From Verrucomicrobiales bacterium (GTDB lineage Bacteria > Verrucomicrobiota > Verrucomicrobiia > Verrucomicrobiales > DEV007): a stretch of DNA of 64,000 bases. The notes beneath the pieces are model-generated. The model did not search any database. It was given only the letters and a program-made list of their open reading frames with translations, and had not been told where the DNA came from. The stretch lies in assembly GCA_002698785.1 (NCBI GenBank), contig PAAG01000060.1:1-64000 (forward strand). Direction: 5' to 3'. Of this stretch, positions 279 through 64,000 are shown piece by piece. The number at the start of each line of letters is the position of its first letter. Position 1 is the stretch's first letter. Both the position numbers and the translations under genes were made by a program.

Positions 279-314
279 TGGACCATGAACCTAACCCAAA
301 GTAAGAATATGGTC

Positions 315-635
315 ATGAAACGAAGACGACGCTACACCGCTGAGTTCAAGCAACAGGCTATGGAACTGGTAGAGGCCGGAAGACCTGCGGCAGAAGTAGC
401 CGAGGAGTTCGATATCGAGCTGAGCTGCCTCTACGCGTGGATGCGCAGAGCCAGGGCAACGCAAGAGGCGCAGGGAGGTAGCGACGTTGTGCGAGCCGAA
501 GGCGAGCACAACGAAGCGGACGAACTGCGCCGCTTGCGGCGCGAGAACGCCCGGCTGCGCTCGGAAAACGTCATTTTAAAAAAAGCCGCCATCATTATCG
601 GGACCGAATTCCCCCGGCAAACCGACGAGAGATGA
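315..635 (+). CDS. IS3-family transposase OrfA
   Basis: OrfA is the DNA-binding subunit of an IS3-family transposase. It begins with the family-typical basic sequence MKRRRRYTAEFK followed by a helix-turn-helix (about residues 10-45). A leucine-zipper-like stretch near the C-terminus (ELRRLRRENARLRSENVILKK) is the part that normally mediates multimerisation. I chose the ATG at 315 because it matches the usual OrfA N-terminus. In-frame ATGs at 285 and 309 would add a few residues, but the one at 285 abuts the putative terminal repeat. The stop codon overlaps the OrfB ATG (ATGA at 632-635), and an A7G run at 578-585 could shift ribosomes into the OrfB frame. Confidence 0.88.
   Translation: MKRRRRYTAEFKQQAMELVEAGRPAAEVAEEFDIELSCLYAWMRRARATQEAQGGSDVVRAEGEHNEADELRRLRRENARLRSENVILKKAAIIIGTEFPRQTDER
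578..585 (+). other. candidate -1 programmed frameshift site (A7G)
   Basis: Seven A residues followed by G lie in the 3' part of orfA. OrfB is in the -1 frame relative to orfA, and that frame has no stop between the run and the orfB ATG at 632. A -1 slip here would therefore give the OrfAB fusion, which in IS3-family elements is the active transposase. This matches the A6G-type sites known in the family; activity is inferred. Confidence 0.6.
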
Positions 636-1489
636 TTCTTTCGATCCATCGAAAAACCGGCGAGAGTTTACGTCGCATTACCGATGTTCTCGGGTTCGCA
701 CGCAGCAGCTTTTACCAACAATCGCGCGAGACCCCGACTCAGGTCGAGGACCGCCGTATGGCAAAGGTGATCAGTGAAATCTTCCATGCTCATCGTGCCC
801 GCTATGGCTATCGCCGAGTACAGGCAGAGCTCCTCGATTGTGGCATCCGCTGCGATCCCGGACGGGTGCGCCGCTTGATGAAGCAAGAAGGGCTGCGAGC
901 CGTCCAGCCACGCCGTTTTCGGCCGCGAACCAGCGATGGAAAAGCCTCTGCTCCCTCGCCAAACCTGCTCGCTGGCAAGAACGCCATACCGGGGAAGCCA
1001 GATAAGGTCTGGACTGGCGACATCACTTACATCCCGAGTGCTTCGGGTTGGCTCTACCTCGCCGTGGTGGTCGATTTATACTCTCGCAAGATCGTGGGTT
1101 GGAGCTTGGCGAAAACCATGAAAACAGAACTCGTTTGTCGGGCGCTGAAGCAGGCCTTGCAAACGCGACGTCCCGAAACTGGATTGATCTTCCACAGCGA
1201 CCGGGGGAGCCAGTATGGGAGCAGGCGTTTTCGACGGTTGCTGAAGGCAGCGGGAATCCGTCAGAGCATGTCGGCGAGGGCCAATCCCTACGACAATGCC
1301 TGGACCGAATCCTTCATCGGAACGCTCAAACTCGAAAATGCTCCTGCCTGCAACTACACGGACGACCGGCAAGCGCGCACCCATCTCTTCGAGTACATCG
1401 AAGGATATTACAACACGCGACGCAAACACTCAGCACTCGACTACCGAACTCCCGCTCAGTACGAACGGGTCACTCTATCTTTAACATAA
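632..1489 (+). CDS. IS3-family transposase OrfB (DDE integrase core)
   Basis: This is the catalytic subunit of an IS3-family transposase, 285 residues. The N-terminal HTH_21-like part (about 35-95, with HRARYGYRRV) is followed by an rve integrase core. Catalytic residues are D130 (in WTGDITYI), D190 (in FHSDRGSQY) and E226 (in AWTESFIG), with the 35-residue D-E spacing typical of the family. The length is normal and there is no interruption. It overlaps orfA by four bases and is expressed by coupling or through the OrfAB frameshift product. Confidence 0.93.
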   Translation: MILSIHRKTGESLRRITDVLGFARSSFYQQSRETPTQVEDRRMAKVISEIFHAHRARYGYRRVQAELLDCGIRCDPGRVRRLMKQEGLRAVQPRRFRPRTSDGKASAPSPNLLAGKNAIPGKPDKVWTGDITYIPSASGWLYLAVVVDLYSRKIVGWSLAKTMKTELVCRALKQALQTRRPETGLIFHSDRGSQYGSRRFRRLLKAAGIRQSMSARANPYDNAWTESFIGTLKLENAPACNYTDDRQARTHLFEYIEGYYNTRRKHSALDYRTPAQYERVTLSLT

Positions 1490-1508
1490 TAACCCAATCA
1501 ACGGTCCA

Positions 1509-1793
1509 ATAATCCCTTGCACCTCAAGGAATGTCAACGAGAGATCAAAAATTCATTTTTGGTTGGTTTAATCCTTGGTCTTGGTTGGGTGTCGAACAAC
1601 GGAATCCGGCTTCCATACGCACTCTGGTTGGTGGGATTCTTTGTCCCGGTGCAAGATAGGTTCCGCTTTTGTCGGTTCAAAAGTTACCAAGGCGCTGCCT
1701 GCTTTGGAACGCACTCTTCGATGCCAGCCCATGTCGCAGTCGCCCGGAAAATCGATTTCATGTTGTCGGTAGGAGTCTTCTTTTGGGCCTGTT
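1509..1793. other. non-coding gap between IS3 and IS110 transposases; possible IS110 right-end region
   Basis: This 285-bp stretch has no believable gene; an open frame on the + strand running from it into the transposase is only a shadow. It lies 3' of the minus-strand IS110-family transposase. In IS1111-type members of that family the non-coding 3' side encodes the guide (bridge) RNA, so it could be such a region. I found no clear subterminal inverted repeats, so the element ends remain undefined. Confidence 0.3.
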
Positions 1794-2879
1794 CTAAGCT
1801 GCCTGGAGCGATGGATTTTCGCTGTTCTTCAGCGCGACGTAGTCGCTCCGATCCTGCCACATCGCCAGCATGAGCACGGCCAGTTTGCGGGCCACGGCGA
1901 TGATGGCTTTTTTCTTCGCACTCCGGCCTCCTTTGGCGGCAAGCTTCAACCCATGTCGCCGCAAGTCGCAGTCGGGTCCGTAGTGCCCAAGCAGGTATTG
2001 GGAACATTGCACTAACAGACTTCGAAGGTAGCGGTTTCCGGCTTTACTCACGGGAAGCTCCCGATCGGTTTCACCGGATTGGTCGCGCTTGGGAACCAAT
2101 CCTAACCAGGCCCCTACGTCTCGCGCTTTCGGGAAGCGGTTGGGATCTTCGACGCTCAGCACGAAGCATAGTGAAGTGACTGGTCCGACTCCGTCGATCT
2201 GCTGTAGGTGCTGGGCCTCGGGGTAGTCGGTCCTGGCGGCGTCGGCGATGGCTCGATCGTAGTGTTTGATCTGTTCGTTTAATCCGTCGATGGCCTTGAG
2301 GCCGGGTTCGACGGCGGCGAGAAGCTCGGGGGTGTCTTCAAGGCAGGTTCTCACTCGCCTGGCAAAGGCTGGGGTCGATACAAGCGGCATACGCTCTCCC
2401 ATACTCTTGAGCAGGCCGCGGATGGAGAGCACGATGTTGGCTCGCTGTCGCACGAGGGTGTCCCGCAGTTTGATTTGCATGAGGTCTCGCTGGGTGCGCT
2501 CACTACGATGATGGACGGGATGAAGCAGCTCGGGATCGATGCGCAATAGTTTGGCGAGCATAGCGGCGTCGCGACGGTCGCTTTTGCGCTCGTTTTCGTA
2601 GATGGCTCGCACGCGCCGGGCGTTGGCGACGGTCACGGCCATCCCTTCGGCTTTCAATAACCGGTCGATCCAGGGGCTGTGGGTTCCGACTTCGATGGCG
2701 ACGCGCGCACCGGGATAGGTCTTGGCCAGTTTCCGAAGGCTGTCTTTGTGGTTGGGTATTTCAAACTCTTTCTCCACTTCTCCGGTCTTGCCCACAAGGC
2801 AAACTGCGTGTTTCTTGTCTCCGAGGTCGATGCCGATTACGGCGTTCGAGGTTTGCGTAGATTGCGTTTTCTTTTTCAT
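1794..2879 (-). CDS. IS110-family transposase (DEDD/serine recombinase)
   Basis: A 361-residue IS110-family transposase, full length for the family. The N-terminal RuvC-like DEDD domain shows D18 (GIDLGDKKHA), E63 (AIEVGTHSPW) and the D101/D104 pair (KSDRRDA). A helix-hairpin-helix-like IDGVGPVTS (about 228-236) opens the C-terminal Transposase_20 domain. That domain ends in a segment with the expected nucleophilic serine S278 (PVSKAGNRYLRSLL). These enzymes move their elements with guidance from an element-encoded non-coding RNA. The start codon is about 60 bp from the truncated ISL3 transposase, which suggests this element inserted into or beside it. Confidence 0.93.
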   Translation of the reverse strand: MKKKTQSTQTSNAVIGIDLGDKKHAVCLVGKTGEVEKEFEIPNHKDSLRKLAKTYPGARVAIEVGTHSPWIDRLLKAEGMAVTVANARRVRAIYENERKSDRRDAAMLAKLLRIDPELLHPVHHRSERTQRDLMQIKLRDTLVRQRANIVLSIRGLLKSMGERMPLVSTPAFARRVRTCLEDTPELLAAVEPGLKAIDGLNEQIKHYDRAIADAARTDYPEAQHLQQIDGVGPVTSLCFVLSVEDPNRFPKARDVGAWLGLVPKRDQSGETDRELPVSKAGNRYLRSLLVQCSQYLLGHYGPDCDLRRHGLKLAAKGGRSAKKKAIIAVARKLAVLMLAMWQDRSDYVALKNSENPSLQAA

Positions 2880-2937
2880 ATCACCGAAATCGTAATCTCT
2901 CTCGGCGCCGGTGGCACGGCCTCAATTCCTTCTCATC

Positions 2938-3839
2938 TTATCTATGGAGGGTGGCTTTCTGTGCGGGGAAGAGTTTGTCGGGGTGGGAGCGCAGGGCGGC
3001 GAGGTAGCCTCTGTGGTTTTTGACGTGGGGTGCGATCTGGCGCACCAGGTCCATGAAGTGTTGTTGGATCACTCGAATGACGTGGTAGCGATCAGCGACG
3101 ATCTTGGCGTTGGGGAAGTGTTTGCGAACCAAGGCGCGGTAGGAACTGCTCAGTCCATGCATGCGACGCGGACATTCTGTTTGCCTTTGAGAGCGATGAA
3201 GTAGGCGTCGAGGCTTTGCGGATCACGGCCCTGGACGGTGTCGAAGACGTGTCGGGTCCGTAGGTTGCAGAGCGTGGTCGCGAAGCGGGTGCTGCGATGG
3301 GAGTTGGTCTTCTTTCGATGGATGGAGTGTTCATCAATCCCGAGGACGGGAGGGCAGACTCCATCGAAGCGTTCCCGAGCTTTGCGCTCGGTGTATTCGT
3401 GATAGAAGCGCTCAACGGAGGCCGAGCCGAGCACGCTGCCTGCGATACCATCCCGATGCTGCTCATAGACCTTGCGACGGAACGGTTCGGAAGAGTGTCG
3501 ATAGGGTTTTATGCCAGGCAGCAGAGGAAGGAATGACTTTCGACATCGCCGACACTGGAAGCGACGCGTGTGGACGCGGAGGTAGGTGGTTCTACCAAAG
3601 GCGTCGAGGTGACGAACCGTGCGTGAGTAGGGCCCCTTGGTGTAGACCTTGAGGCCCCCGGCCTCGCTACGCTCGTCACGGTGGCCTTGCGGTCTACACC
3701 AAGGGCAGGCTGGACGTGCGTTCTCCCACAGGCTCAAGTGCAGCACCGAATGGTATCGGTGCTCTTCGATCCTATCAACCCGATACCCGGCAATTCCAAT
3801 TTCTTTCAGCTCTCCTGACATGAGCGAACCATTGTTCAT
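2938..3839 (-). pseudogene. ISL3-family transposase, frameshifted and 3'-truncated
   Basis: Two overlapping minus-strand frames (3839-3150 and 3162-2938) make up one ISL3-family transposase. The first carries a zinc-finger-like region with C45-x2-C48 and C96-x2-C99, a helix-turn-helix region, and the first DDE aspartate D169 (GIDEHSIHRK). It ends directly after the second conserved aspartate (VACMD). The other frame continues with LSSSYRALVRKHFPNAK and DRYHVIR. Loss of one base after the GAC codon (near 3152-3156) explains the break. The reading then stops at 2938 without the last ~100 residues of the family, close to the IS110 transposase start. The combined product is non-functional unless rescued by frameshifting. 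Confidence 0.85.
3634..3705. repeat. 15-bp perfect (20/23 imperfect) inverted repeat inside the ISL3 zinc-finger region
   Basis: cccttggtgtagacc at 3634-3648 is exactly repeated in inverted orientation at 3691-3705. With five further matches towards the centre it forms a stem of about 20 of 23 pairs around a 26-nt loop. The loop is GC-rich and contains ctcgctacgctcg. On the coding strand it adds the segment RPQGHRDERSEAGG straight after the CPWC half of the zinc finger, where family members usually have only a few residues. It looks like a small palindromic insertion. Confidence 0.6.
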
Positions 3840-22285: not shown

Positions 22286-22654
22286 ATGAGTAAGAAAGAC
22301 CAACAGAACGAAACGGAAACAGCTGGTACGACAGAAGAACTCCAGCAACATGGTAAGCCTAATGTGCGCATCCTGTATGAGAAGACCGAGGCGTCTTTCA
22401 TCAATCAGGTTATCGTAAATTCGGGACGAGATCAGATCATTCTCGATTTTTCCACGGGCATTATTTCGGATCATGCGAGTGGAAACCACGTGCTTCCCAT
22501 TCAGCATCGCCTAGCGATGACTCCAGCCAATGCGGCGAGTCTCGTGAACACTCTGGGCGGTGTCCTTCGCCAGATGAGCGAGGCAAACCAGAAGGCTGCA
22601 GAGGAAGCCGCTGATGCTCCGCAGGAAGGCGAAGTCGCCCTATCCGAAGCCTGA
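22286..22654 (+). CDS. DUF3467-family protein
   Basis: 122 residues, cytoplasmic. The core FINQVIVNSGRDQIILDF followed later by HRLAMTPANAASLVNTLGGVL matches the pattern of DUF3467 proteins (small proteins of unknown function). The N-terminus is Glu/Gln-rich, and the C-terminus Ala/Glu-rich and probably disordered. It starts the export-like locus, followed after 25 bp by the GAF/HlyD protein. A chaperone or regulatory role in that locus is possible but unproven. Confidence 0.8.
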   Translation: MSKKDQQNETETAGTTEELQQHGKPNVRILYEKTEASFINQVIVNSGRDQIILDFSTGIISDHASGNHVLPIQHRLAMTPANAASLVNTLGGVLRQMSEANQKAAEEAADAPQEGEVALSEA

Positions 22655-24556: not shown

Positions 24557-26815
24557 ATGGATTCGGATCATGCAGTTAGAGAATGGTCGATATCGCGCCC
24601 GAGGTTGCGGGGTGACCTGAGGTTCCATTTTCAACAGGACAAGGGGAAACCAATCTATGTGATCGAAGATCTAGCGAACCGAAAATATCTACAAGTGGGA
24701 CTGCCAGAGTATCAATTGATTCGTGGTCTCGATGGAACGAAGACTGTAGCGACTCTTCTCGCGGAGAATGCGGGAAGACAGCGGGATGAGGCATTGTCAG
24801 AATCTGAAATGATGTCGGTGTTGCGGTGGTTGCTGGATCAGCATCTGCTTGAGCCCGAAAGCCTGGACCAGTCGAAGCGCCGTCATCGAGAAGCACCGAA
24901 GAAGAAACCTGACAAGCAGGGCGGCATCATGGGGGTGCTTTTCTATCGCCAGCCGATGGGAAGTCCAGATCGGTTTCTTGGGATCATGGCGAAGTGGTTT
25001 GGGTGGAGTTTTTCCAAACCATTTTTCCTGCTGTGGGTGGTTCTTATTCTTGTTGGTGCCTACCTAGGATTCGAGAATGGGCAGCGATTGTTGAAGGCAT
25101 TAGGTGCTGCGGTAATGCCTTCGAGCTGGGTTATTCTCGCTCTTGTCTTCATCGGCCTGAAGATTTTGCACGAGATCGGACATGGGATCGCGGCAAAACG
25201 TTATGGCGGGGTAATTCCAGAATGGGGAATACAGTTGATTGTGCTGATTACCCCACTGACGTATGTGGATGCGAGTTCGAGTTGGAGCTTCCCCTCGCGG
25301 TGGCACCGGCTCGCTGTAGCTGCTGCGGGGATGTATGTGGAATTAGGGCTGGCTGCGATCGCACTTACCGTGTGGACATTTTCCGATCCGGGATGGGTCC
25401 AATCGCTGGCGGCAAATGTAGTCGTGTCAGCATCCGTGGTGACTTTGTTATTCAACGCGAACCCGTTGATGCGATTCGACGGTTACTACATGCTCAGCGA
25501 CGCCACGGGGATCAAAAACCTGAGTGGTAAGGGGATGATGATGCTGCAATGGCTGGCGAAAAAGATCTTCCTCGGAATACAGCATTTACCTCTACCGAAA
25601 GGAACGCGTAAACATCGCTGGTTTATTGGCGCGTACGGAATTGCGGCCGGTATCTGGCGCGTGTTGCTGATGACGGGCATTCTCCTCATTCTTGCAGCAA
25701 TGTTCAAGGGAGTGGGGCTGCTTCTTGCGATTGCTGTCGTGATCGGATCAACCTGTGTGGGAATTGTAAAAATGTTCCGTTTTTTGCTGGCGCGCGAGCA
25801 AGGTGTTCGCATGGGGGCTGCGCTTAGCCGAATCGGATTGGCTGTTCTCATTGCCGCGGCGATTCTGTTTTTCTGGAAGATTCAGCCGGCCCCTAAGGCA
25901 CCTGCAGTGGTGAACTATCCTGAGAAGACAATTCTGCGAGTCGATTGTCCTGGTGAGGTAGTGGGCATTCATGTGAAAAACGGTGATGTGGTGAAAGAGG
26001 GGCAAAAACTATTTACGCTGGCGAACATCGAAGAGGAGAAGCTGGTGGAGAAGCTGGATGTCGAGTTGAAGTATGCCGAACTCCAGAGCCGTGAGCTGTT
26101 GGCCATTGACGAATTTCCTACCTATCAGGCTCAGATGAAGAGGGTGGAGGGATTGAAAGAGCGTCTTGCCAGCCAGAAGGAGAAAGTGGAGTCATTAGTC
26201 GTTTGCGCCCCTGTTTCCGGGCGTGTTCATCTCCGCGAGACAGATGGGCTCGAAGGCCGATTCCTTGAGACGGGGCGTGATTTGTTGATCATTCTACCAA
26301 AGGTTGTCCCGACTGTTTTGATAAGTGTTTCTCAGGATGATCTTCGAGAGTTAGACGGGAATCTCTCTCGTGAGATTAGTCTAAGGTTGAACGGTCGATC
26401 TGAGGAGTTGCTGGCTTCCCTGACAAGAATCGAATCTCGGGCGACAACGGGTGTTCCGCATTCGGCGTTGTCAGCATCATTCGGTGGACCTTTGTCTGTG
26501 CGGCGAGACATCGACCGATCTGAGGAAAGGGAGCGAGGTCTGGCCAGGGAACGGTTTCAGCAGGAATCGCTGAACCACTTTTCCCGGTTGGGTGATGCCC
26601 AAAGTGCAATACCGCAGGAATTGATTCGAGCGCGGTTTGCTGCGTATGCGGAGCTGTCGGATTTAGAGGGCGTGGAAACTCTGCGCGAGGGTGAGTGGGG
26701 CTTTGTGAAAATGAGCGCGGCAAGAGAAATACGTCTGGGGAAATGGCTCTACGATCATGTGCATCGGGCGCTCCTTGAGAAGTTTGAGAAGACACAGGAG
26801 GCGACGCCGATATGA
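24557..26815 (+). CDS. PqqD-like/M50 metalloprotease/HlyD fusion protein
   Basis: 752 residues. Residues about 6-98 resemble PqqD-like winged-helix domains that bind leader peptides in RiPP pathways (YLQVGLPEYQLIRGLDG). A multi-pass M50 site-2-protease-like part follows, with HEIGH (205-209) and the third-ligand region NPLMRFDGYY with D308. After further helices, about 454-582 is an HlyD-like periplasmic part with two lipoyl halves (DCPGEVVGIHVKNGDVVKEG and VCAPVSGRVHLRETDG) around a coiled coil. Related M50/HlyD fusions occur in PVC genomes. It may act as the inner-membrane export gate or processing unit for the giant protein; that is inference. It overlaps the next gene by 4 bp. Confidence 0.85.
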   Translation: MDSDHAVREWSISRPRLRGDLRFHFQQDKGKPIYVIEDLANRKYLQVGLPEYQLIRGLDGTKTVATLLAENAGRQRDEALSESEMMSVLRWLLDQHLLEPESLDQSKRRHREAPKKKPDKQGGIMGVLFYRQPMGSPDRFLGIMAKWFGWSFSKPFFLLWVVLILVGAYLGFENGQRLLKALGAAVMPSSWVILALVFIGLKILHEIGHGIAAKRYGGVIPEWGIQLIVLITPLTYVDASSSWSFPSRWHRLAVAAAGMYVELGLAAIALTVWTFSDPGWVQSLAANVVVSASVVTLLFNANPLMRFDGYYMLSDATGIKNLSGKGMMMLQWLAKKIFLGIQHLPLPKGTRKHRWFIGAYGIAAGIWRVLLMTGILLILAAMFKGVGLLLAIAVVIGSTCVGIVKMFRFLLAREQGVRMGAALSRIGLAVLIAAAILFFWKIQPAPKAPAVVNYPEKTILRVDCPGEVVGIHVKNGDVVKEGQKLFTLANIEEEKLVEKLDVELKYAELQSRELLAIDEFPTYQAQMKRVEGLKERLASQKEKVESLVVCAPVSGRVHLRETDGLEGRFLETGRDLLIILPKVVPTVLISVSQDDLRELDGNLSREISLRLNGRSEELLASLTRIESRATTGVPHSALSASFGGPLSVRRDIDRSEERERGLARERFQQESLNHFSRLGDAQSAIPQELIRARFAAYAELSDLEGVETLREGEWGFVKMSAAREIRLGKWLYDHVHRALLEKFEKTQEATPI

Positions 26816-28125
26816 GCGGCTATTCGGATACAGTCAAACGCTTTGAAGAGATCTACCGGCCTGCGGGGCGGCAGGAAGTTCTCGACGCATGGGAGCGCTG
26901 TAACAATGACAATTTGCACGTTTACGTTCACACGCCGTTCTGTGCGAGTGTTTGCAAGTTTTGTTACTACAAAGGAGTCGAGTTCAATAAGGAGAAGGAA
27001 GGAGAACTTTACGCGAAGTATTTCGATGATTATCTCCCTCGCGCGATTGAACCATTTTCTGAGGTGATTGATTCTCGCAGTGTCAGGAATTACTTTTTTG
27101 GCGGGGGAACCCCGAGTTTGATGTCCCTTGATACGATGGAGACGCTTTTTCAGCGGCTTCCCTCTTTTCCTAGTGCGGAGACGAAGACCTTTGAGGTTCA
27201 TCCCGCTGTGTGGAGCAAGGAACAAATCGACTTGTTGGCGGAATATGGATTTAACTGCTGTATTGTCGGCGTCCAGTCCTACGATCCGGATGTGCTCAAG
27301 CGCCAGAATCGCCTCGCTGCTTCGCCGGAGAAAATTCATGAGCTTGTCTCATATATTCGAGGCAAGGGAATGTACGTCGCGGGTGATTTGATCTATTACA
27401 TGGATCGCATCAACCCCGACGAGATTTTCGAACGAGATCTGCGGCATGCCGTAGACTCAGATTTCGATGTGTTAAGCCTTCAGTTGAACTACGATCTGCT
27501 TTCGGCGGATCACCTGACGGATAAGTTCTTTCAGATGATTCTGTCTTCTCCCCTCGCTCAGACGCATTATTGGGAGAATGACGACAAGAAAGACCTTACC
27601 GTGGCATTCAAACGGACTTTGAAGTGTCTTCGTGTCGTGCGAAAAGGTATTCCCATTGAGGATTATCGGGAGAAGATCTTTCGTTTTGTCCAGACAATGG
27701 ACGAGGGGTCCAAGCACGCGGGGAATCTTGGGCATTATCCTTCTTCGATCGGTTTTGGCTCTTACCGGAATTCACGCAAGAACACTTTTTCTACGATTCG
27801 GGACAGGAAATCACTATTTGAATACATCGAGGTAAACGATGAATGGGAGCCGAGATATTTTGTCACCTATGAATGGCAAGAGGCATTGTTTTTTGAGGAT
27901 ACTGTCAGAGAGCTTGATAAGCTGCGAGAGATCGGCCCGCCGCCACGGGGGATGAAAATCTGCTTTGAGAATAAGCTGACGGTGAAGAACGAGAATCACA
28001 TTATTAGGGAGCCTGGATCGCAATCGAACTTGTCGGTTGTCTGGGATTACCGGAATCCGGATATCGATGCCTATATCCAGAAATTGAAGAGACTTTTTCC
28101 CCACTGGAACTGGAAAAAATTCTAA
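26812..28125 (+). CDS. HemN/HemW-like radical SAM protein
   Basis: 437 residues. The 4Fe-4S motif C44-x3-C48-x2-C51 (PFCASVCKFCYY) and the SAM-binding glycine motif FFGGGTPS (about 95-102) place it in the HemN/HemW superfamily. An aromatic residue follows the third cysteine, as in HemW rather than the CxC of oxygen-independent HemN. Further HemN-like segments (VGVQSYDPDVLKRQNR, GDLIYYMD) are present. The C-terminal ~150 residues (after LGHYPSSIGFGSY) are not typical of HemW. Related enzymes include heme chaperones and class C radical SAM methyltransferases that modify peptides. Its place between the PqqD-like fusion and two oxygenases favours a protein-modifying role. Confidence 0.88.
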   Translation: MSGYSDTVKRFEEIYRPAGRQEVLDAWERCNNDNLHVYVHTPFCASVCKFCYYKGVEFNKEKEGELYAKYFDDYLPRAIEPFSEVIDSRSVRNYFFGGGTPSLMSLDTMETLFQRLPSFPSAETKTFEVHPAVWSKEQIDLLAEYGFNCCIVGVQSYDPDVLKRQNRLAASPEKIHELVSYIRGKGMYVAGDLIYYMDRINPDEIFERDLRHAVDSDFDVLSLQLNYDLLSADHLTDKFFQMILSSPLAQTHYWENDDKKDLTVAFKRTLKCLRVVRKGIPIEDYREKIFRFVQTMDEGSKHAGNLGHYPSSIGFGSYRNSRKNTFSTIRDRKSLFEYIEVNDEWEPRYFVTYEWQEALFFEDTVRELDKLREIGPPPRGMKICFENKLTVKNENHIIREPGSQSNLSVVWDYRNPDIDAYIQKLKRLFPHWNWKKF

Positions 28126-28145
28126 CCGAGACACCGAATACGATC

Positions 28146-28811
28146 ATGCCTACCGAAACCTGGTTTCCGATTTTTGTATTCTATGAGGACATCGAGTTTT
28201 CTCCCGAGGTGAAAAAGGGAGCGGTCGAAGCGATTGAGGAGCACATCGAATGGGAGGTCTTTGAGACTCGCGGGGCCATTACGGCAAGTACGGCGACGAA
28301 TCGATTTCATCACGACCCTCGCATCCGGGATCTGATCGCCGAGATGCAGCCAGGGTTCGAAAAGTGTTTTTACGAGGATCTGAAAATCGATCCGGAAAAA
28401 GTCAGAATTTTTATCGGGCGTTGTTGGCCTGTTATCCAGATCAATAATGGAGACAGTGGGATCAAGCATTTCCACCGAGGGGGAACCTTTTCGTGCGTAG
28501 TGTATCTGGATGTTCCGGATGGGGCTGGCAGTCTGGAGTTTTTTAAACCTACGAATCTCGTTTGTGATGGTCTTCCGAAGAAAGAGCTAACACCGCTCAC
28601 TTTTACCTCGGCGAACTATCCGGCAAAGGAGGGGAGGATGGTTCTTTTTCCTTCCGAGATCGAGCATCGGCGAATGCGGAATAAAGGGGAGGGGGAAGGA
28701 AAGCGTCTCGCCATCGCAATGGACATTTATACGAGCAGTGAGATCGATCACTACGAGGCGGGCCGACCGCATTTAGAATATTGCATTCCGCTTTCTGAAT
28801 TGAGTAAGTGA
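28146..28811 (+). CDS. 2OG-Fe(II)-oxygenase-like protein (first of two)
   Basis: About 221 residues. A double-stranded beta-helix core is suggested by the iron-ligand motif IKHFHRGG (H108, H110) and the distal histidine H174 in EIEHRRMRN, with a nearby basic residue for 2-oxoglutarate. The spacing and the pattern FSCVVYLDVPDGAGSLEF resemble the TIGR02466-type putative 2OG-Fe(II) oxygenases. It starts with PTETWFPIFVFYED, the same opening as its downstream neighbour. Substrate unknown; position suggests the giant protein. It lies 20 bp after the radical SAM gene and its stop overlaps the next start. Confidence 0.8.
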   Translation: MPTETWFPIFVFYEDIEFSPEVKKGAVEAIEEHIEWEVFETRGAITASTATNRFHHDPRIRDLIAEMQPGFEKCFYEDLKIDPEKVRIFIGRCWPVIQINNGDSGIKHFHRGGTFSCVVYLDVPDGAGSLEFFKPTNLVCDGLPKKELTPLTFTSANYPAKEGRMVLFPSEIEHRRMRNKGEGEGKRLAIAMDIYTSSEIDHYEAGRPHLEYCIPLSELSK

Positions 28812-29413
28812 TGAAAGGCACTCGCGAGGACTGGTTTCCGACTTCGGTCTGGTATTTTGATCTGGACGATATCCCAGCGCGTCATCTGGAGATGATCGAT
28901 GATCTTCGCCGTCTGCGAGAGGAAGATGAAATAGGTGTAACAGGTAGGTCGACAGAACTGGGGTGGCACAGTCATGTCGATCTTCATGAGAATCCCATTT
29001 TCGCGCCGATCATGCGGGCAGCTCTGGATGGGGGGATGGAAGTTGCTGCGCACCAGGATTGGGATCTCGATCGAGTAGAAATCTTTGTGATAAACTCGTG
29101 GGGGATCATCAATCCGAAATACGGCTACAATGCGATGCACAATCACCCGAGTTCGGTCCTCAGTGGTGTGTATTATATCAAAGCGCCGGAGAACTGCGGC
29201 GATATTGTGTTTCGTGATCCCCGTGAGGTCTGCCAGATGGTAGTGCTTCCCACAAAGAAACAGAACCGATGGACGTATCAGCGAGTTTTTTATCGCCCGA
29301 AGGAGGGGCGGCTCCTGATATTTCCCAGTTGGCTGCTGCACGAGGTGAAGCCGAACCTTAGTGAGGAGGAACGGATCTGTGTGAGTTTCAATATCGGTTA
29401 CCGGCAGAAATAG
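28811..29413 (+). CDS. 2OG-Fe(II)-oxygenase-like protein (second of two, TIGR02466-like)
   Basis: About 200 residues. The iron ligands are H110 and H112 (AMHNHPSSVLSGVYY) and distal H177 (SWLLHEVKPN), followed by RICVSFNI. The series HNHPSSVLSGVYYIKAP, GDIVFRDPRE and GRLLIFPSWLLHEV is typical of the TIGR02466 family of putative 2OG-Fe(II) oxygenases. The ATG at 28811 overlaps the upstream stop (TGATG); an in-frame GTG at 28808 is an alternative. The two oxygenases share their opening residues (EDWFPTSVWYFD versus TETWFPIFVFYED), so they probably arose by duplication. Confidence 0.85.
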   Translation: MKGTREDWFPTSVWYFDLDDIPARHLEMIDDLRRLREEDEIGVTGRSTELGWHSHVDLHENPIFAPIMRAALDGGMEVAAHQDWDLDRVEIFVINSWGIINPKYGYNAMHNHPSSVLSGVYYIKAPENCGDIVFRDPREVCQMVVLPTKKQNRWTYQRVFYRPKEGRLLIFPSWLLHEVKPNLSEEERICVSFNIGYRQK

Positions 29414-29652: not shown

Positions 29653-32600
29653 ATGAGCAAAAAGTCTGACTCTAACGAGTCTTTGCGCACCGGCGTTGAC
29701 GACAAGCCGAGAGTTTCTTCTACAGAAACCAAATCATCCGGAATGCGTTCCGGAATCGACACTTTCAAGAAATGGTTCAACAAGACGTTTCAATCAGATA
29801 GCGAAGAAGAGAATGATCGTGTTCGATTCGAAAACCTTGAACCACGTTTGCTATATTCAGCCTCTCCCTACGTCGATCCTGCACAGGCAGATGCGGATCA
29901 GGACAACACCGATCAGCAGGAGGTGATTGAGAATTCTGCTCCGGCAGATACGACTGGATCGGGTAGTGGGCAGTTTGACTCGCTTACTCAGCAAGCAGCG
30001 GAGAATGGAACGATCCTTCCCGAAGGTAGTTTTCAAGGAATTGAGGCAGGCGGTATTTCTCTTGATGAGTTGTCCGAGGCGGCTGTTCGGCGCTGGGAAG
30101 ACGAGGGGCTGAGCCAAGAACAGATTCAAGTTCTCTCCGAACTCGAGTACGAAGTTGAAGATCTGGGCGTGGAGGGACAGCTCACTGAATTCCGTGATGG
30201 AACTCTGGTAATCGATGACGATGCAGCCGGTTCAGGTTGGTTCGTAGATGGGACTCCTTTCCTCGATGACGAGTATGGATTCTACCAGGAGAAGATGGTT
30301 GCTTTCGATAACGCAGCCGCTGGAAAAATCGATCTTCTTACTGCTGTTTTTGAAGGGCAGGGACAGGCAATCGGCATCATCGATTCACCCGCAAATACTT
30401 CAGACACTTTCCTCGGTCGTTTCGAGCCAGGAGAGCGGGTGACTCCAGCCCGTTGGTATTCTGAAGGGTCTGTGGCAGGAACTGTCGTTAAATCGGACGA
30501 ACCGGACGTCATGCTTTCTACTTCGCCGCTTACGGAAGACGAGCTCGGTATCGTTGCTGATGCGGCAAAGCAGCGCTGGATCGAATCGGGACTGACTGAC
30601 GAACAGAGGGAAGCTCTCAATGATGTCGTGTTTACGATTGGTGACCTCGGCGAAAACCGTCTCGGTGAAACAACTGGCCTTGAAATCACAATTGATGATG
30701 ACGGTGCCGGTGTAGGCTGGTTCGTCGATATGACTCCGGGTGAGGATGAGGAGTTCATCCTTGGTGAAGATGGTCGCTATCGCAGTAATACGAGCGACCA
30801 GTATGATCTTCTTACAGTGCTTATGCACGAGTACGGACATGCTCTCGGCTTGGGAGAATCGTCGAGTGGGGATCTTGACGACGTGATGACTCATGAGTTG
30901 GATGTCGATGAACGCCGTCTCCCAGCAGACATGCAGGCGGCAGGAGCATCACCGGGGACGATCACTATTCCTCACTACGCGGGCGGAGCGGACATGACTG
31001 CTCCCAACCCCGTCGTTGCTCTCACCAGCCCAATGGGAAGTCCGGTTTCTTCCAGCCAGAACCCATTCAGTTATTCCGTGACGTTTGGGGAGGAAGTGAC
31101 CGGTTTTGACGAGACGGACTTGACTATCGTAAACGGATCGATCGCTAATTTCACGACGAGCGACAACATTACTTGGACGTTTGACGTTTCTCCGACTTTA
31201 GATGGTGATGTGAGTGTTTCGGTAGGGGCGTCCGTCGCCGCTGATCTGGCGATGAACGCTAACACTGTTTCGAATACTGTAACGATCCGAAGCGATCGCA
31301 CTTCGCCTACTCCGGTAGTCAGTGGTACGACAACTCCGACAAATCTTAGCACGGTTACTTTCACCGTTGATTTCGGTGAATCGGTGACAGGATTCGATGC
31401 ATCCGATCTTACAATTACCAACGGAACCGTGTCGGGTGGAATCACCAATAACGGTAGCGGTTCATATACTGTTAACGTGGCGGCGACTACGACGGGTACG
31501 GCGGTCTCTCTGGGGGTCGCGGCGTCTGCTGCGACCGATTCCGCAGGCAATGTCAGCTTCGCTTCCAATAGTTTTTCGATTACCCCTTTGTCCGGGGGAA
31601 CGTTGTCCCTGACGGGAACGTCGGGCGACGATACTTATTACATTCGTGCCCTCGGAAATGGCCAGGTGTTCGTTACTACCAGCAAGACGCAGTTCGACCT
31701 TGAATTGGTGAGTCTGAATACCGGAGGCGACACTTACAGCAACGTCGATATCATCGACATCGATTCTCTAGCGGGGTCCGACAATATTGTCCTGCACACA
31801 GCTGACGACGACCTTCGTGATACGGACGGTAATTTGATGTCCTTCGATTTTACCGGTTCGGACCAACTGAAAATCGAGACCTACACCGAGTTGGACGACA
31901 TTGAATTCAGGGGATCGATCGTGAATGATGGCAAAGTGGTCATTGAGTCGGGTACGATTCTGGGGGCGTTCTTTTCGTTCAACTCTCTTTCCGGTGCGAT
32001 CAAGCTGGGAGAGAATACAGTGATCTCGACCGATGTAGGGACCGATGCTAGCGACATCGAAATTCTCGGCAAGGATATCACTCTTCAGTCAGGGACACAG
32101 CTCAACGCGACCTCGAGTAGTGGAACCTCGGGGGATATCACAATCAAAGCCGAGGACAAGACGTTGACGGCCGATTTTTCGATTATCGGCGTCACCAAAA
32201 ATGCAGCGAGTATCTCAATCGATGATTCGACCATCACGGGAAAGGATGTCACGATCAAGGCTCTTGGCCAAGACCTTACTCTCGCGGATGCGGTTCCGAA
32301 ATGGGCCTCGAAGCAATTGTTAGGTCCGATTGGTAACCTTGGAATAGATGCATTGCTAGGGGCTATCCCGATTCCTGCTTCCGTAATGATTCGGGGTAGT
32401 GATGCGACGATCGACATTACCGGGAATACTACAATTGAAGCAGAGAACAAGGTCACAATTGAGACCAAGGCGGTCAGTGACTCGAGTAGCCGAGCCATCA
32501 GCGTGAAGACACCTGGGCAAGGTGGGGTTCTTGGCGTTTTGAATTCCATCAGCGTGGCTTACAGCCAGGGTACTGCAACTTCGAAGATCAACATTGCTGG

Positions 32601-60556: not shown

Positions 60557-62749
60557 ATGTTTAGAAACTGTTGCAAAACATTACCGTCGGAAGGCGGGAA
60601 AAGGGCGCATAGGTGCAACGTGAGCCGTTACACAGACAGATCCTCAGCAAGGGGGGCACTCCTCTTCTTGTCATTACTGGCTGCCCTGTTTTCTACAGGG
60701 GGCCAAAATGGTAGAGCTGATTCTATTCAAGCTCAGCCGCTACTTTCGGCAGAGCCGGTGGCAGGAGAGAAAGAGAGAAAACCGCTGTTGAATTCGTTTT
60801 TCGGTGAAAAGCGGGGGGCAAAGAAAAGCGAATCTCCCGAGATGGCTGTAGAGCCAATCTCAGCGAAGCCAGTTGAAGTTTCGGCAGCTACTGAGTCAGC
60901 AGATCTCCCTGCAGTAAAGGTGACCAAGAAAGGGGAACCGGTGGAAGACTCGATCAAGGTAGGTTACGAAACATCTTCTCCTGCAGAGAAAAAGTCTGTT
61001 CTGGGCTGGTGGTTCAAGAAGGGAGAAGCTGAAGCTGATAAGATCGAAGAGAAAGAGATTTTCGAACCAGCGCCGGATGTCGACAATTCAGAAATATTCG
61101 AGGCTCAGACGATTGCCCTTACCAAGTCGGAATCTGAACTTGCAGTCGATGCGAGGATTGAAAAACTGTATAACGAAATCGAAGGCCGCATCTGTCAGTT
61201 TACCGATCCGGAATTGAACATCAATCAATTTGCCGGAGACGGGGTGCCGATCGATTTCAACGAAACGTGGGGGCAAGACATTCTTCGCAGCTATTGGGGT
61301 GGACAGCCTCGAATTTCTCGTTCGCTAGATTCGGTTTATTCAGCGGCCATGAGCCACTCCTACCGAGTGAAGGATCTTACCTACATCCCACAAATTACTG
61401 AGACGAACATCGGAGCTGCTGAGGGCGAGTTCGACCCGGAAATTTTCAGCGAACTTCGCCGCGAGCATATCGACGAGCCCACCGGCTCGACACTCACCAC
61501 GGGGACAACTGGCCGGTTGATCGAAGACAACTGGACCGGAGAGGTGGGAGCCCGCAAAAAATTTATCAATGGTGGTGAAGCCGAGCTTTCTCACGATTTT
61601 CTCAGTCGAAAAAACAATTCGACGTTTCTTGATCCGAATCCGCAGACGCAGACCGACGTTCGCCTCCGTGTCGTCCAACCGCTCCTTCGAGGAAACGGTA
61701 TTGAGTACAACACAATTTCCATCAAAGTAGCCAATCTGGACACTCGTATCGCGACTGAGCAGATGGTCAATGCGCTCGAAGATTACCTGCTTGAGGTCAA
61801 TCGCAGCTATTGGGGGGTCTATCTCGCTCGTGCAGCCTATGCACAACGTCTCGAACTTGTGGGAGTGACAGGAGATGTCGTGAATCTCCTTAAAGAACGC
61901 GAGGAGATCGATGCCGAAGCTACTGCGAGTGAAATTGTTCGTGCCAAAGCTTCACTGCTTGAGAGAAAAGCCGATCTGATCCGAAGCAAAACCGCAATAC
62001 GCACAGCCGAAGAGCGCCTTCGCTCCCTGTTGAACGATCCCAGCATGCCAATGGGAATGGCGGCGGAGTTTATCCCATCTTCCAAACCGATTCTCAGTCC
62101 TCCCTGCGATGATGTGCAAACAGTTGCTCACCTCGCAATCAAGAACCGTGCCGAAATCGTAGGAAGCGAAAACGCGATTCGCGTGGCCGGTCTTCGGCGG
62201 GATGCCGCCCGTCACGATCTTCTTCCAAGGCTGAATGTCACGGGTGAAATCGGATATGCAGGACTTGACCGCGGCAGGGACTTTCGCGGTGCCTACGACG
62301 ATACCAACGAATACGGTGCCGGTTGGGCATTCGGCTTTACCTTCAGCCAGCCTTGGGAGCGCCGTTTCGCCAAGTCTTTCGAAGTACGTCGCGATCTTGA
62401 ATACGATCAGGCCGTCAACCAGCTCCGTCTCGCCGGAAATGAAATCATCCTCGATGTGCTCGTGAGCTATCGCGAAGTGGTCACCGCCTACCAGGACATG
62501 CAGGCCAAATACCAGGCCGTTCGCGCCTCTCGCGAGGAAGTCCGCAAACTCGAAGAGCTCGTTAAGACCGATGCGGGCGAAGACTCTGGTCGCACCATCG
62601 GTTCCCGTCTCCAGATCCTGCTCGACGCCATTGAGCGAAACCAGACCGCCGAAGAATCTTACCTCGTTTCCGTCGTGGCATACAATTACTCCCTCGCCGC
62701 CCTCGAACGGGCCAAGGGCACCTTCATTCGCCTCGACAACTACAAGTGA
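60557..62749 (+). CDS. TolC-family outer-membrane protein with long N-terminal extension
   Basis: About 730 residues, beginning one base after the giant gene's stop codon, so probably co-translated. After a short basic segment a signal sequence is seen (ARGALLFLSLLAALFS). Residues about 55-190 form a Glu/Lys/Pro-rich low-complexity extension not normal for TolC. The TolC-family part has OEP-type helices and strands (LRVVQPLLRGNGIEYN, VNRSYWGVYLARAAY, RLNVTGEIGYAGLDRG, FTFSQPWERRF, ALERAKGTFI). TolC channels pair with HlyD adaptors, two of which are encoded upstream. The extra N-terminus might contact other partners or the wall. It is 61 bp from the SecA-like gene. Confidence 0.85.
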   Translation: MFRNCCKTLPSEGGKRAHRCNVSRYTDRSSARGALLFLSLLAALFSTGGQNGRADSIQAQPLLSAEPVAGEKERKPLLNSFFGEKRGAKKSESPEMAVEPISAKPVEVSAATESADLPAVKVTKKGEPVEDSIKVGYETSSPAEKKSVLGWWFKKGEAEADKIEEKEIFEPAPDVDNSEIFEAQTIALTKSESELAVDARIEKLYNEIEGRICQFTDPELNINQFAGDGVPIDFNETWGQDILRSYWGGQPRISRSLDSVYSAAMSHSYRVKDLTYIPQITETNIGAAEGEFDPEIFSELRREHIDEPTGSTLTTGTTGRLIEDNWTGEVGARKKFINGGEAELSHDFLSRKNNSTFLDPNPQTQTDVRLRVVQPLLRGNGIEYNTISIKVANLDTRIATEQMVNALEDYLLEVNRSYWGVYLARAAYAQRLELVGVTGDVVNLLKEREEIDAEATASEIVRAKASLLERKADLIRSKTAIRTAEERLRSLLNDPSMPMGMAAEFIPSSKPILSPPCDDVQTVAHLAIKNRAEIVGSENAIRVAGLRRDAARHDLLPRLNVTGEIGYAGLDRGRDFRGAYDDTNEYGAGWAFGFTFSQPWERRFAKSFEVRRDLEYDQAVNQLRLAGNEIILDVLVSYREVVTAYQDMQAKYQAVRASREEVRKLEELVKTDAGEDSGRTIGSRLQILLDAIERNQTAEESYLVSVVAYNYSLAALERAKGTFIRLDNYK

Positions 62750-62810: not shown

Positions 62811-64000
62811 ATGATCACACAGTTTGCGAAGCAGTATGACAAGCGCTCCTACCTCGAGGGGCGGCTCCGTGCTGGTTGGAAACGCGCGCTGAATCCGCAG
62901 GGCGGCCATAACGACCAGCTTCGTCTCCGGAAAATCCTTTCGATGGAGGAGGAAATGGCTGCACTCACCGACGAGGAGATCCAGCAGAGGTCTCACAAGT
63001 GGAAAGAGGAGATGGAAAAGGGGGCCATCGAGTGGGAAGACATCGTCGAGCCTTCCTTTGCCCTGCTCCGTGAAGCCGCCCGCCGTGTTCTCGGGCTCTT
63101 TCCGTATCCCGAACAGGTGCTCGGTGGGCTGGCCCTCGTTCGTGGATGTGTCGCCGAGCAGGCAACCGGGGAGGGGAAAACTCTGACGACTACCATTCCA
63201 TCCTATTGCTTCGGGCTCACCGGAAAGGGCGTCCACGTCGTTACCGTCAACAGCTACCTCGCAAAGCGGGACTACGAGTTCGCCAAGCCGCTCTTCGAAT
63301 TCCTCGGCTTGACCATCGGTTTTCTCGAAGAACAGGGGGATCCGGCAGACAAGACCAAGGCCTATCGCTGCGACATTGTTTACGGCACGGGCTACGAATT
63401 CGGTTTCGATTACCTTCGCGATCAGCTGAAACTCTTACAAAACCCTAAACCGTCTCCCGTCGACCGGCTTTGTGGAGTACTCATGGGGGAGACTTGTCAG
63501 GAACCGGAACTCATGCATCGCCGCCTCAGTTTCGCCATTGTCGACGAGGTGGACAGTGTGCTCATCGACGAGGCCGGGTCGCCCCTACTGCTCAGTGGAG
63601 CCGGACGGGAAGATTTCGATCCCCGTCCTTTTCAACGAGCCCTCGAACTCACCAGCGAGCTGGAAGAGGGCCGCGATTACTGGCTCGAACGCGGGCGCAA
63701 TGTTACCCTGACACGACAAGGGAGGCAAACCGCCCATGCGGCGAAAGGCGTTCCCTGGGCAGCCTTGATACGTCCCTGGAAAACCTACGTCGTCAACGCA
63801 CTCGTCGCTGAGATTCTCCTGCGTCGCGACGTCGACTACATTGTCGAGGACGACTCCGTCATTATCATCGACGGCAATACCGGGCGAGCCCATGCCGAGC
63901 GATCCTGGCGCGACGGACTTCACCAGGCCGTGGAGACCAAGGAGCAAGTCACCATTAAATCCGAGAACCAATCCGTCGCCAGTATCACACGCCAGCGGTT
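62811..64000 (+). CDS. SecA-type ATPase, divergent; 3' end outside the window
   Basis: The first 396 residues of a SecA-like motor; the gene runs off the window. Nucleotide-binding motifs are Walker A TGEGKT (119-124) and the Walker B region AIVDEVDSVLIDEA (222-235). Other SecA landmarks are GVHVVTVNSYLAKRD, YGTGYEFGFDYLRD and GLHQAVETKEQVTI. Several positions differ from housekeeping SecA: QATGEGKT for MRTGEGKT, VNSYLAKRD for VNDYLARRD, DEAGSP for DEARTP, and IDGNTGR for IDEFTGR. It may therefore be a second, dedicated SecA. Position after TolC, the giant protein and HlyD proteins suggests it powers export of the giant protein. A housekeeping secA in an unusual lineage cannot be fully excluded without the rest of the genome. 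Confidence 0.8.
   Translation, partial: MITQFAKQYDKRSYLEGRLRAGWKRALNPQGGHNDQLRLRKILSMEEEMAALTDEEIQQRSHKWKEEMEKGAIEWEDIVEPSFALLREAARRVLGLFPYPEQVLGGLALVRGCVAEQATGEGKTLTTTIPSYCFGLTGKGVHVVTVNSYLAKRDYEFAKPLFEFLGLTIGFLEEQGDPADKTKAYRCDIVYGTGYEFGFDYLRDQLKLLQNPKPSPVDRLCGVLMGETCQEPELMHRRLSFAIVDEVDSVLIDEAGSPLLLSGAGREDFDPRPFQRALELTSELEEGRDYWLERGRNVTLTRQGRQTAHAAKGVPWAALIRPWKTYVVNALVAEILLRRDVDYIVEDDSVIIIDGNTGRAHAERSWRDGLHQAVETKEQVTIKSENQSVASITRQR

Follow-up and report, generated by a model that had tools for sequence, protein, structure and literature searches.

Secondary SecA_DEAD genes that lie beside genes for M50/HlyD, HlyD and GAF-HlyD proteins, and sometimes beside one for an outer membrane efflux protein (OEP), were described by Kamneva, Poudel and Ward in 2015. 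The accessible text of that paper proposes SecA as the ATPase and the M50 protein as a possible pore of a type I-like system, and calls its broader role "completely unknown" (PMC4452313). We analysed a locus of this type in a 64,000-nucleotide stretch of DNA from a Verrucomicrobiales bacterium (positions 1 to 64,000 of contig PAAG01000060.1, assembly GCA_002698785.1), hereafter the window. It encodes a protein in which a PqqD/RRE-type winged helix, an M50 site-2-protease-like membrane core and an HlyD/MexA-type adaptor form one chain, for which we coined the name PMH (short for PqqD-M50-HlyD), and a giant protein that carries a LEPR-XLL element. A short secondary SecA was found near the M50/HlyD and HlyD genes, and as far as the accessible text describes it, the published locus holds the same cassette. 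Added here are the RRE domain, the counts of kept catalytic residues and the link to LEPR-XLL; the accessible main text of PMC4452313 nowhere uses the terms PqqD, LEPR or giant.

Fusion of an RRE to an M50-type peptidase has a precedent in the daptide clusters: according to the accessible part of PMC10036551, these were discovered by way of an RRE joined to a peptidase of the PF02163 group. PMH shares this pairing with the daptide protein (NF041824) and differs from it in falling below the family cut-off, in adding an HlyD adaptor, and in recurring with export genes and giants instead of a short precursor peptide. In type I secretion (HlyB-HlyD-TolC) the signal is C-terminal. The PMH locus resembles that system in its HlyD-type adaptors, its TolC-type OEP and a large cargo candidate with 10 GGxGxD motifs, and departs from it in that, as judged from one query gene, PMH loci seem to have no recurrent ATP-binding cassette (ABC) motor, holding a SecA-like ATPase and an RRE-M50 protein instead, and in that the signal of the cargo is proposed to be N-terminal. 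The N-terminal domain of PMH is similar in profile and fold to PqqD and to stand-alone RREs (TbiB1, TfuB1); unlike these, it is fused to a membrane protease-adaptor and would read the leaders of proteins thousands of residues long. LEPR-XLL is mentioned in passing in the accessible parts of PMC10868602 and PMC9611531, and none of the open-licence literature matches listed links PqqD/RRE, SecA and LEPR-XLL.

On balance, PMH is probably the inner-membrane subunit that receives the cargo in a secretion machine with an accessory SecA, and the proteins exported would be those with LEPR-XLL, the giants above all. The cytosolic RRE/PqqD domain would bind a basic N-terminal leader that ends in F.LE.LEPR.LLSA; the M50 site, which opens towards the cytosol in our topology reading, would cut at or near the LEPR element; the accessory SecA-like ATPase (aSecA), where present, would act as the motor and push the chain across the inner membrane; and the HlyD domain of PMH, two partner HlyD proteins and the OEP would carry it over the periplasm and outer membrane. 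This proposal builds on the computed domain architecture, the conservation of catalytic residues, the recurrent cassette, and the co-occurrence and physical linkage of PMH with LEPR-XLL giants. An earlier sequence-only reading had one protein recognise, clip and hand over its substrate, which is too simple a scheme because PMH belongs to a machine encoded by several genes, among them one for an accessory SecA. More tentatively, at slightly under even odds, LEPR-XLL may mark a distinct secretion pathway in which the tag is read by an RRE and taken off by an intramembrane protease, and in which a dedicated paralogue of SecA moves proteins of up to 10,000-20,000 residues through a TolC-type conduit with no ABC transporter involved; part of the path may be formed by the M50 core itself. 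If true, the proposal joins two orphan observations, the second-SecA secretion-like locus and the LEPR-XLL proteins; very large bacterial proteins gain a defined export route, and RRE leader recognition reaches from peptides to giant proteins.

Three domains in one chain

The open reading frame (ORF) for PMH lies at exactly the coordinates where the sequence-only reading had placed a three-domain chain, 24557-26815, and each of the parts it named held up. An HlyD-type gene ends 17 bases upstream, and the next gene is overlapped by 4. A full-length AlphaFold2 model made with 77 relatives reached a mean predicted local distance difference test (pLDDT) score of 90.8 and a predicted template-modelling score of 0.80. 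All three domains were found again in relatives whose record titles span many phyla, which argues that the build is no chance reading. The relatives come from 116 loci, 36 from the class of the source genome and 80 named ones from many phyla, of which 114 are distinct (L145 and L157 are duplicates). Alignment A1 omits L100 and L105 and includes a trimmed paralogue from contig C50; alignment A3 holds 77 of the 80 named loci, L135, L152 and L153 being out for length or open ends; and A4, the 76-member profile of N-terminal domains, drops L122 and L154 as well. The paralogue, a second PMH of the source genome with an HlyD partner (C50 563419-567618; L005), is 40% identical, and no giant was seen near it in the 30 kb read.

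The window copy alone goes unrecognised by Pfam PqqD, and evidence from the family was therefore needed. A profile of the 76 N-terminal domains placed PqqD 3g2b first among 16 matches in the PDB at E<=10 (E 1.7e-5), followed at ranks 2-4 by PqqC/D 5sxy (0.0013), the lasso RRE TfuB1 6jx3 (0.012) and PqqC/D 5vrd (0.023). Taken singly, 29 of the 76 domains matched Pfam PqqD (PF05402) at E<=0.1, and 21 matched NCBIfam TIGR03859 PqqD at E<=0.01. AlphaFold2 predicted residues 1-120 as b-b-b-a-a-a, the order of an RRE, with block mean pLDDT values of 89-97 across residues 11-100. The profile match to 3g2b and the predicted fold together bear out the PqqD-like domain of the sequence-only reading, which had named structure prediction of the N-terminus alone as a check. 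TbiB1 RRE-leader complexes occupied the first four rows of a Foldseek search with the N-terminal model, at weak E values of 0.013-0.06, and in VIA-align the model superposed on the TbiB1-leader complex 5v1v_A with Z 10.4 (root-mean-square deviation 3.1, 87 residues aligned) and on TfuB1 with Z 10.2 (2.9, 84 residues).

Several of the results speak against so specific an assignment. The window PMH by itself has no Pfam PqqD match at E<=1, and likewise none in the family scan at E<=0.1; none of the 1061 Foldseek matches of the N-terminal model reached E<=0.001; two non-RRE methyltransferase chains attained a VIA-align Z of 9.6; and PqqD 3g2b itself scored only 6.4 over 58 residues. What the fold search identifies is a winged helix, and what the sequence profile identifies is PqqD/RRE. 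We lean towards the view that the RRE domain of PMH binds the leader.

The M50 core of PMH scores 26.6 bits with Pfam Peptidase_M50, just below the cut-off of 27.2, and a relative at L102 scores 34.7, above it. The closest NCBIfam model is that of the daptide protease (daptide_HExxH, NF041824), which aligns residues 16-402 of PMH to model positions 2-365 of 379 at E 2.3e-44; PMH does not reach the cut-off of this equivalog model (152.1 versus 300 bits). H205, E206, H209 and D308 are kept in all of the 38 sequences of a first alignment, and in 78, 78, 77 and 78 of the 78 rows of a second that overlaps it in part, in agreement with the M50 protease with HEIGH and D308 of the sequence-only reading. 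In our judgement, the M50 site would probably cut the leader. Seven hydropathy peaks were seen in the core, and the loop at 301-353 has 8 K/R and 2 D/E. The seven hydrophobic helices and this positively charged loop suggest an N-in/C-out arrangement, in which the RRE would be cytosolic, HExxH and D308 would lie near the cytosolic face and the HlyD domain would be periplasmic. The loop at 216-247, cytosolic in that arrangement, has 0 K/R and 2 D/E and lends it no help; the topology of PMH is therefore a prediction only.

The C-terminal part scores 29.5 bits with Pfam HlyD_3 (cut-off 22.2), and among the 50 matches listed by Foldseek for the full PMH model all are periplasmic adaptors (such as MexA, MacA, AcrA and EmrA), as would be expected of the TolC-adaptor domain that had been read from the sequence. 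The type I secretion HlyD model TIGR01843 does not reach its cut-off on PMH (29.7 versus 208.65 bits).

A recurrent cassette of export-type genes with a SecA-like ATPase

PMH recurs with a partner HlyD protein (HlyDN), a small HlyD (sHlyD), a TolC-type OEP and a short aSecA. All cassette labels come from our own profiles, the HlyD families cross-match, and loci truncated at contig ends depress the counts. Of the 114 distinct loci, 94 have an HlyDN homologue no further than 1 kb from PMH and 75 have a small HlyD no further than 6 kb away; the sole HlyDN relative scanned, in L078, has a GAF domain too (6.4e-9). A DUF3467-like gene is an occasional neighbour, lying within 4 kb in 10 of the loci. 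The aSecA of the window carries SecA_DEAD, P-loop_SecA and SecA_PP_bind domains and scores 837.9 bits with the aSecA model, which includes that sequence; its start was assigned here by choice. Its gene lies ~36 kb further downstream than that for PMH, with the giant and the OEP in between, and it is not the housekeeping-type SecA of the source genome, to which a split match on contig C10 belongs. Contig C2 (384058-385992) carries another aSecA of this genome. An apparent PMH-aSecA fusion in L144, a 1203-residue ORF, was rejected: it resolves into a normal PMH of 714 residues and an out-of-frame extension of the aSecA ORF.

Among 188 genomes of the class, aSecA was found in 21 at E<=1e-145, and all 21 have PMH. 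Other counts weigh against the proposal: only 58 of the 114 loci have aSecA within 6 kb of PMH and only 44 have the OEP within 8 kb, both counts being lowered by contig ends, and genome G016 has LEPR-XLL and PMH but no aSecA.

The M50 protein might alternatively be mainly an inner-membrane pore or anchor in place of an ABC transporter, with the RRE docking aSecA instead of a leader and proteolysis being secondary. A pore role was proposed in the accessible text of PMC4452313, and it would fit both the confinement of aSecA to PMH genomes (21 of 21) and the apparent lack of a recurrent ABC motor: the window's own ABC gene lies 15 kb upstream, and a homologue occurs within 8 kb of PMH in 11 of the 114 loci, a search with a single query gene that distant ABC proteins could escape. 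However, HExxH and D308 are nearly invariant, which is needless for a bare pore, and 15 of the 36 PMH genomes of the class lack aSecA at E<=1e-145, while those of them in the 38-sequence alignment retain the N-terminal domain. We regard the pore-or-anchor explanation as unlikely and prefer a PMH that would receive and cut the cargo.

LEPR-XLL giants as candidate cargo

PMH and LEPR-XLL proteins co-occur in genomes. Of the 20 genomes of the class with LEPR-XLL in an ORF of at least 1000 residues, 18 carry PMH, which is present in 36 of all 188 (Fisher p 2e-13), and in the phylum the figures are 21 of 21 against 67 of 318 (p 4e-16); the two samples have genomes in common. Counted by genus within the class, PMH is present in 17 of 19 with such an ORF, against 29 of 111 overall (p 1.5e-10), genus g78 being scored as PMH-negative though its genome G128 has PMH. 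LEPR-XLL in ORFs of any length was found in 3 of 152 PMH-negative genomes of the class and 4 of 251 of the phylum. The counts at ≥1000 residues leave out genomes with the element in short ORFs (G113, G124 and G128 in the class; G113, G124, G204, G227 and G379 in the phylum), and with these included PMH is found in 20 of 23 and 22 of 26 genomes, respectively. Outside the verrucomicrobial labels, LEPR-XLL was found at E<=0.01 in 36 of 50 PMH-bearing genomes; in 27 of these 36 the ORF has at least 1000 residues, and 0 of 14 control genomes had the element at the same threshold. This set was drawn from the 80 named loci after dropping 15 with verrucomicrobial labels and 15 picked by eye, the latter mostly short contigs (not L127 and L162), with L169 belonging to a genome already included.

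The two are also physically linked. Of 56 LEPR-XLL sites in the class and phylum, 14 lie within 10 kb of PMH, against 0.29 expected under uniform placement. Of the 750 non-cassette ORFs that lie near PMH in the 116 loci, 26 have the motif L[EQ].R.[LMV][LMFYW] within their first 110 residues, and 1263 permuted patterns applied to the same ORFs gave a mean of 1.9 and a maximum of 13; for ORFs of at least 1200 residues the motif was found in 16 of 45, with a permuted mean of 0.12 and a maximum of 9. The high maxima presumably reflect permutations that resemble the real motif closely. One of the 26 matches (L185, position 101) looks like chance. Large and seemingly leaderless ORFs upstream of PMH in several loci from other phyla (e.g., L159, L173 and L181) start at the edge of the locus and were counted neither way. 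On this evidence, which also favours the LEPR-XLL segment that the sequence-only reading had singled out as the candidate leader, LEPR-XLL proteins are likely to be cargo of the PMH machine.

Other observations pull in the opposite direction. Relatedness among genomes was handled only through the genus counts. No LEPR-XLL ORF of at least 1000 residues was found in 18 of the 36 PMH genomes of the class, half of the set, and in G034 (85% complete) and G118, which do have such an ORF, the PMH matches cover the adaptor region only. The association with aSecA is likewise uneven: in PMH genomes of the class a LEPR-XLL giant is present in 17 of 21 with aSecA versus 1 of 15 without (p 1e-5), and in the 50 non-verrucomicrobial genomes LEPR-XLL shows no association with it (30 of 41 versus 6 of 9, p 0.70). 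The figure of at least 41 aSecA-bearing genomes in the latter set is a lower bound, counted by hand from matches that reach model position 640 or beyond; G462 (L173) and G455 (L161) have a gene labelled SecA-like at the locus but gave no match of this kind.

The giant of the window contains 0 Cys and 10 GGxGxD motifs, with 14.1% D+E versus 3.9% K+R. It carries a matrixin-like HEYGHALGLGE at residue 392, in which E stands at what we take to be the usual third ligand position of such motifs. The LEPR-XLL model NF012209 scores 22.1, 25.4 and 23.8 bits at the N-terminus of the giant (cut-off 17). Two further LEPR-XLL giants are encoded in the source genome, the first on the window's contig just beyond its end, the other on a different contig. 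The second giant (contig C3 66042-91379; L010, L011), of 8445 residues, follows OEP, aSecA and small HlyD genes. The third (contig C44 18386-43523; L012-L013 and the start of L014) has 7771 residues, and the gene immediately before it is tryptophan-halogenase-like (PF04820, 1.6e-101).

LEPR-XLL leaders from several phyla consist of a basic stretch followed by roughly F.LE.LEPR.LLSA, a common core that follows from their having been found with the LEPR-XLL model. From the non-verrucomicrobial set 30 leaders were retrieved and 24 displayed with the motif; five loci were too short, and L216 was misread. The N-terminus of the window giant has no long hydrophobic stretch: its best 12-residue mean hydropathy is 0.38, and 29 leaders range from 0.3 to 2.46. 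This value counts weakly against another route, in which the giants use SecYEG, driven by housekeeping SecA or aSecA, with PMH confined to trimming the leader and handing the chain on to the OEP, since a few of the other leaders are signal-like. Such a route would suit an aSecA that retains the DEAD, preprotein cross-linking and P-loop domains of SecA, as well as the 15 of 36 PMH genomes without aSecA. We consider export through SecYEG improbable.

Variant tags were found near PMH in genomes without LEPR-XLL matches, and PMH may therefore serve more than giants. Short proteins at L102 and L104 carry FEIEVLESRELFAA and FEIEGLESRQLFAA, respectively, and may be small cargo; they look related to each other (L102 1439-1936, 165 residues; L104 518-973, 151 residues) and share the tag FEIE.LESR.LFAA. 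At L103 (1756-5049, minus strand), in another LEPR-negative genome, an ORF near PMH has the leader LEALEQRQLLAGG. NF012209 stays below its cut-off for L142 and L126 and gives no match for L136, L103, L102 and L104, and the model thus misses variant leaders. The Pfam family Planc_extracel (PF07595) matches the L103 leader at E 0.0049 (17 bits versus a cut-off of 25.5) and L104 at E 0.15, and has no match in the window giant; this hints that LEPR-XLL and the planctomycete Planc_extracel motif may be two forms of a single tag.

Genes local to the window

Between PMH and the giant, positions 26812-29413 hold a gene for a radical S-adenosylmethionine (SAM) protein and two for 2-oxoglutarate (2OG)-Fe(II) oxygenases (Table 1). 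With single-sequence profiles, which distant homologues may escape, 2 of the 114 loci (L135 and L140, both labelled Fuerstiella) showed a radical SAM homologue no more than 9 kb from PMH, and homologues of either 2OG gene were found near PMH in 0 of 114. They were accordingly rejected as parts of the machine and are treated as local additions. These enzymes may modify the giant of this locus.

Their position directly downstream of PMH, together with the daptide protease being the closest NCBIfam model, would also suit PMH as a maturation protease for a ribosomally synthesized and post-translationally modified peptide, with the radical SAM and 2OG enzymes modifying a small peptide and the giant being merely a neighbour. 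The rarity of homologues of these enzymes at other PMH loci in the single-sequence profile search, the daptide score at about half of its cut-off and the way in which LEPR-XLL giants track PMH all run counter to this, and we consider a peptide-maturation role very improbable.

Table 1. Features of the PMH locus, with positions given in window coordinates.
Feature	Position	Strand	Basis
DUF3467-like small protein, occasional cassette neighbour	22286..22654	+	23.5 bits, below cut-off 25
Partner HlyD protein HlyDN, 619 residues	22680..24539	+	HlyD_3 3.7e-17
PMH (PqqD/RRE-M50-HlyD protein), 752 residues, ATG start	24557..26815	+	ORF list, family scans, AlphaFold2
PqqD/RRE-like winged-helix domain, residues 15-100	24599..24856	+	Profile matches, AlphaFold2, VIA-align
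M50 membrane core, 7 predicted transmembrane helices, residues 154-439	25016..25873	+	AlphaFold2 helices, hydropathy
HEIGH zinc motif H205/E206/H209, residues 205-209	25169..25183	+	Conservation
D308 in NPLMRFDGYY, candidate third metal ligand	25478..25480	+	Conservation
HlyD/MexA-type adaptor domain, residues ~447-720	25895..26716	+	Pfam HlyD_3, Foldseek
HemN-like radical SAM protein (CASVCKFC)	26812..28125	+	PF04055
2OG-Fe(II) oxygenase-like protein	28146..28811	+	PF13759
2OG-Fe(II) oxygenase	28808..29413	+	PF13759, TIGR02466
Giant cargo candidate, 10300 residues	29653..60555	+	ORF list, composition
LEPR-XLL leader element RFENLEPRLLYSASP, giant residues 58-72	29824..29868	+	NF012209 above cut-off
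TolC-type OEP	60557..62749	+	PF02321 2.3e-21
aSecA, accessory SecA-like ATPase	62811..64000, continuing beyond the window to contig position 64751	+	SecA_DEAD 2.5e-93

At the start of the window, positions 285-3839 hold transposase-like genes, among them a pair that is IS3-type by appearance, as judged by eye from the translations.

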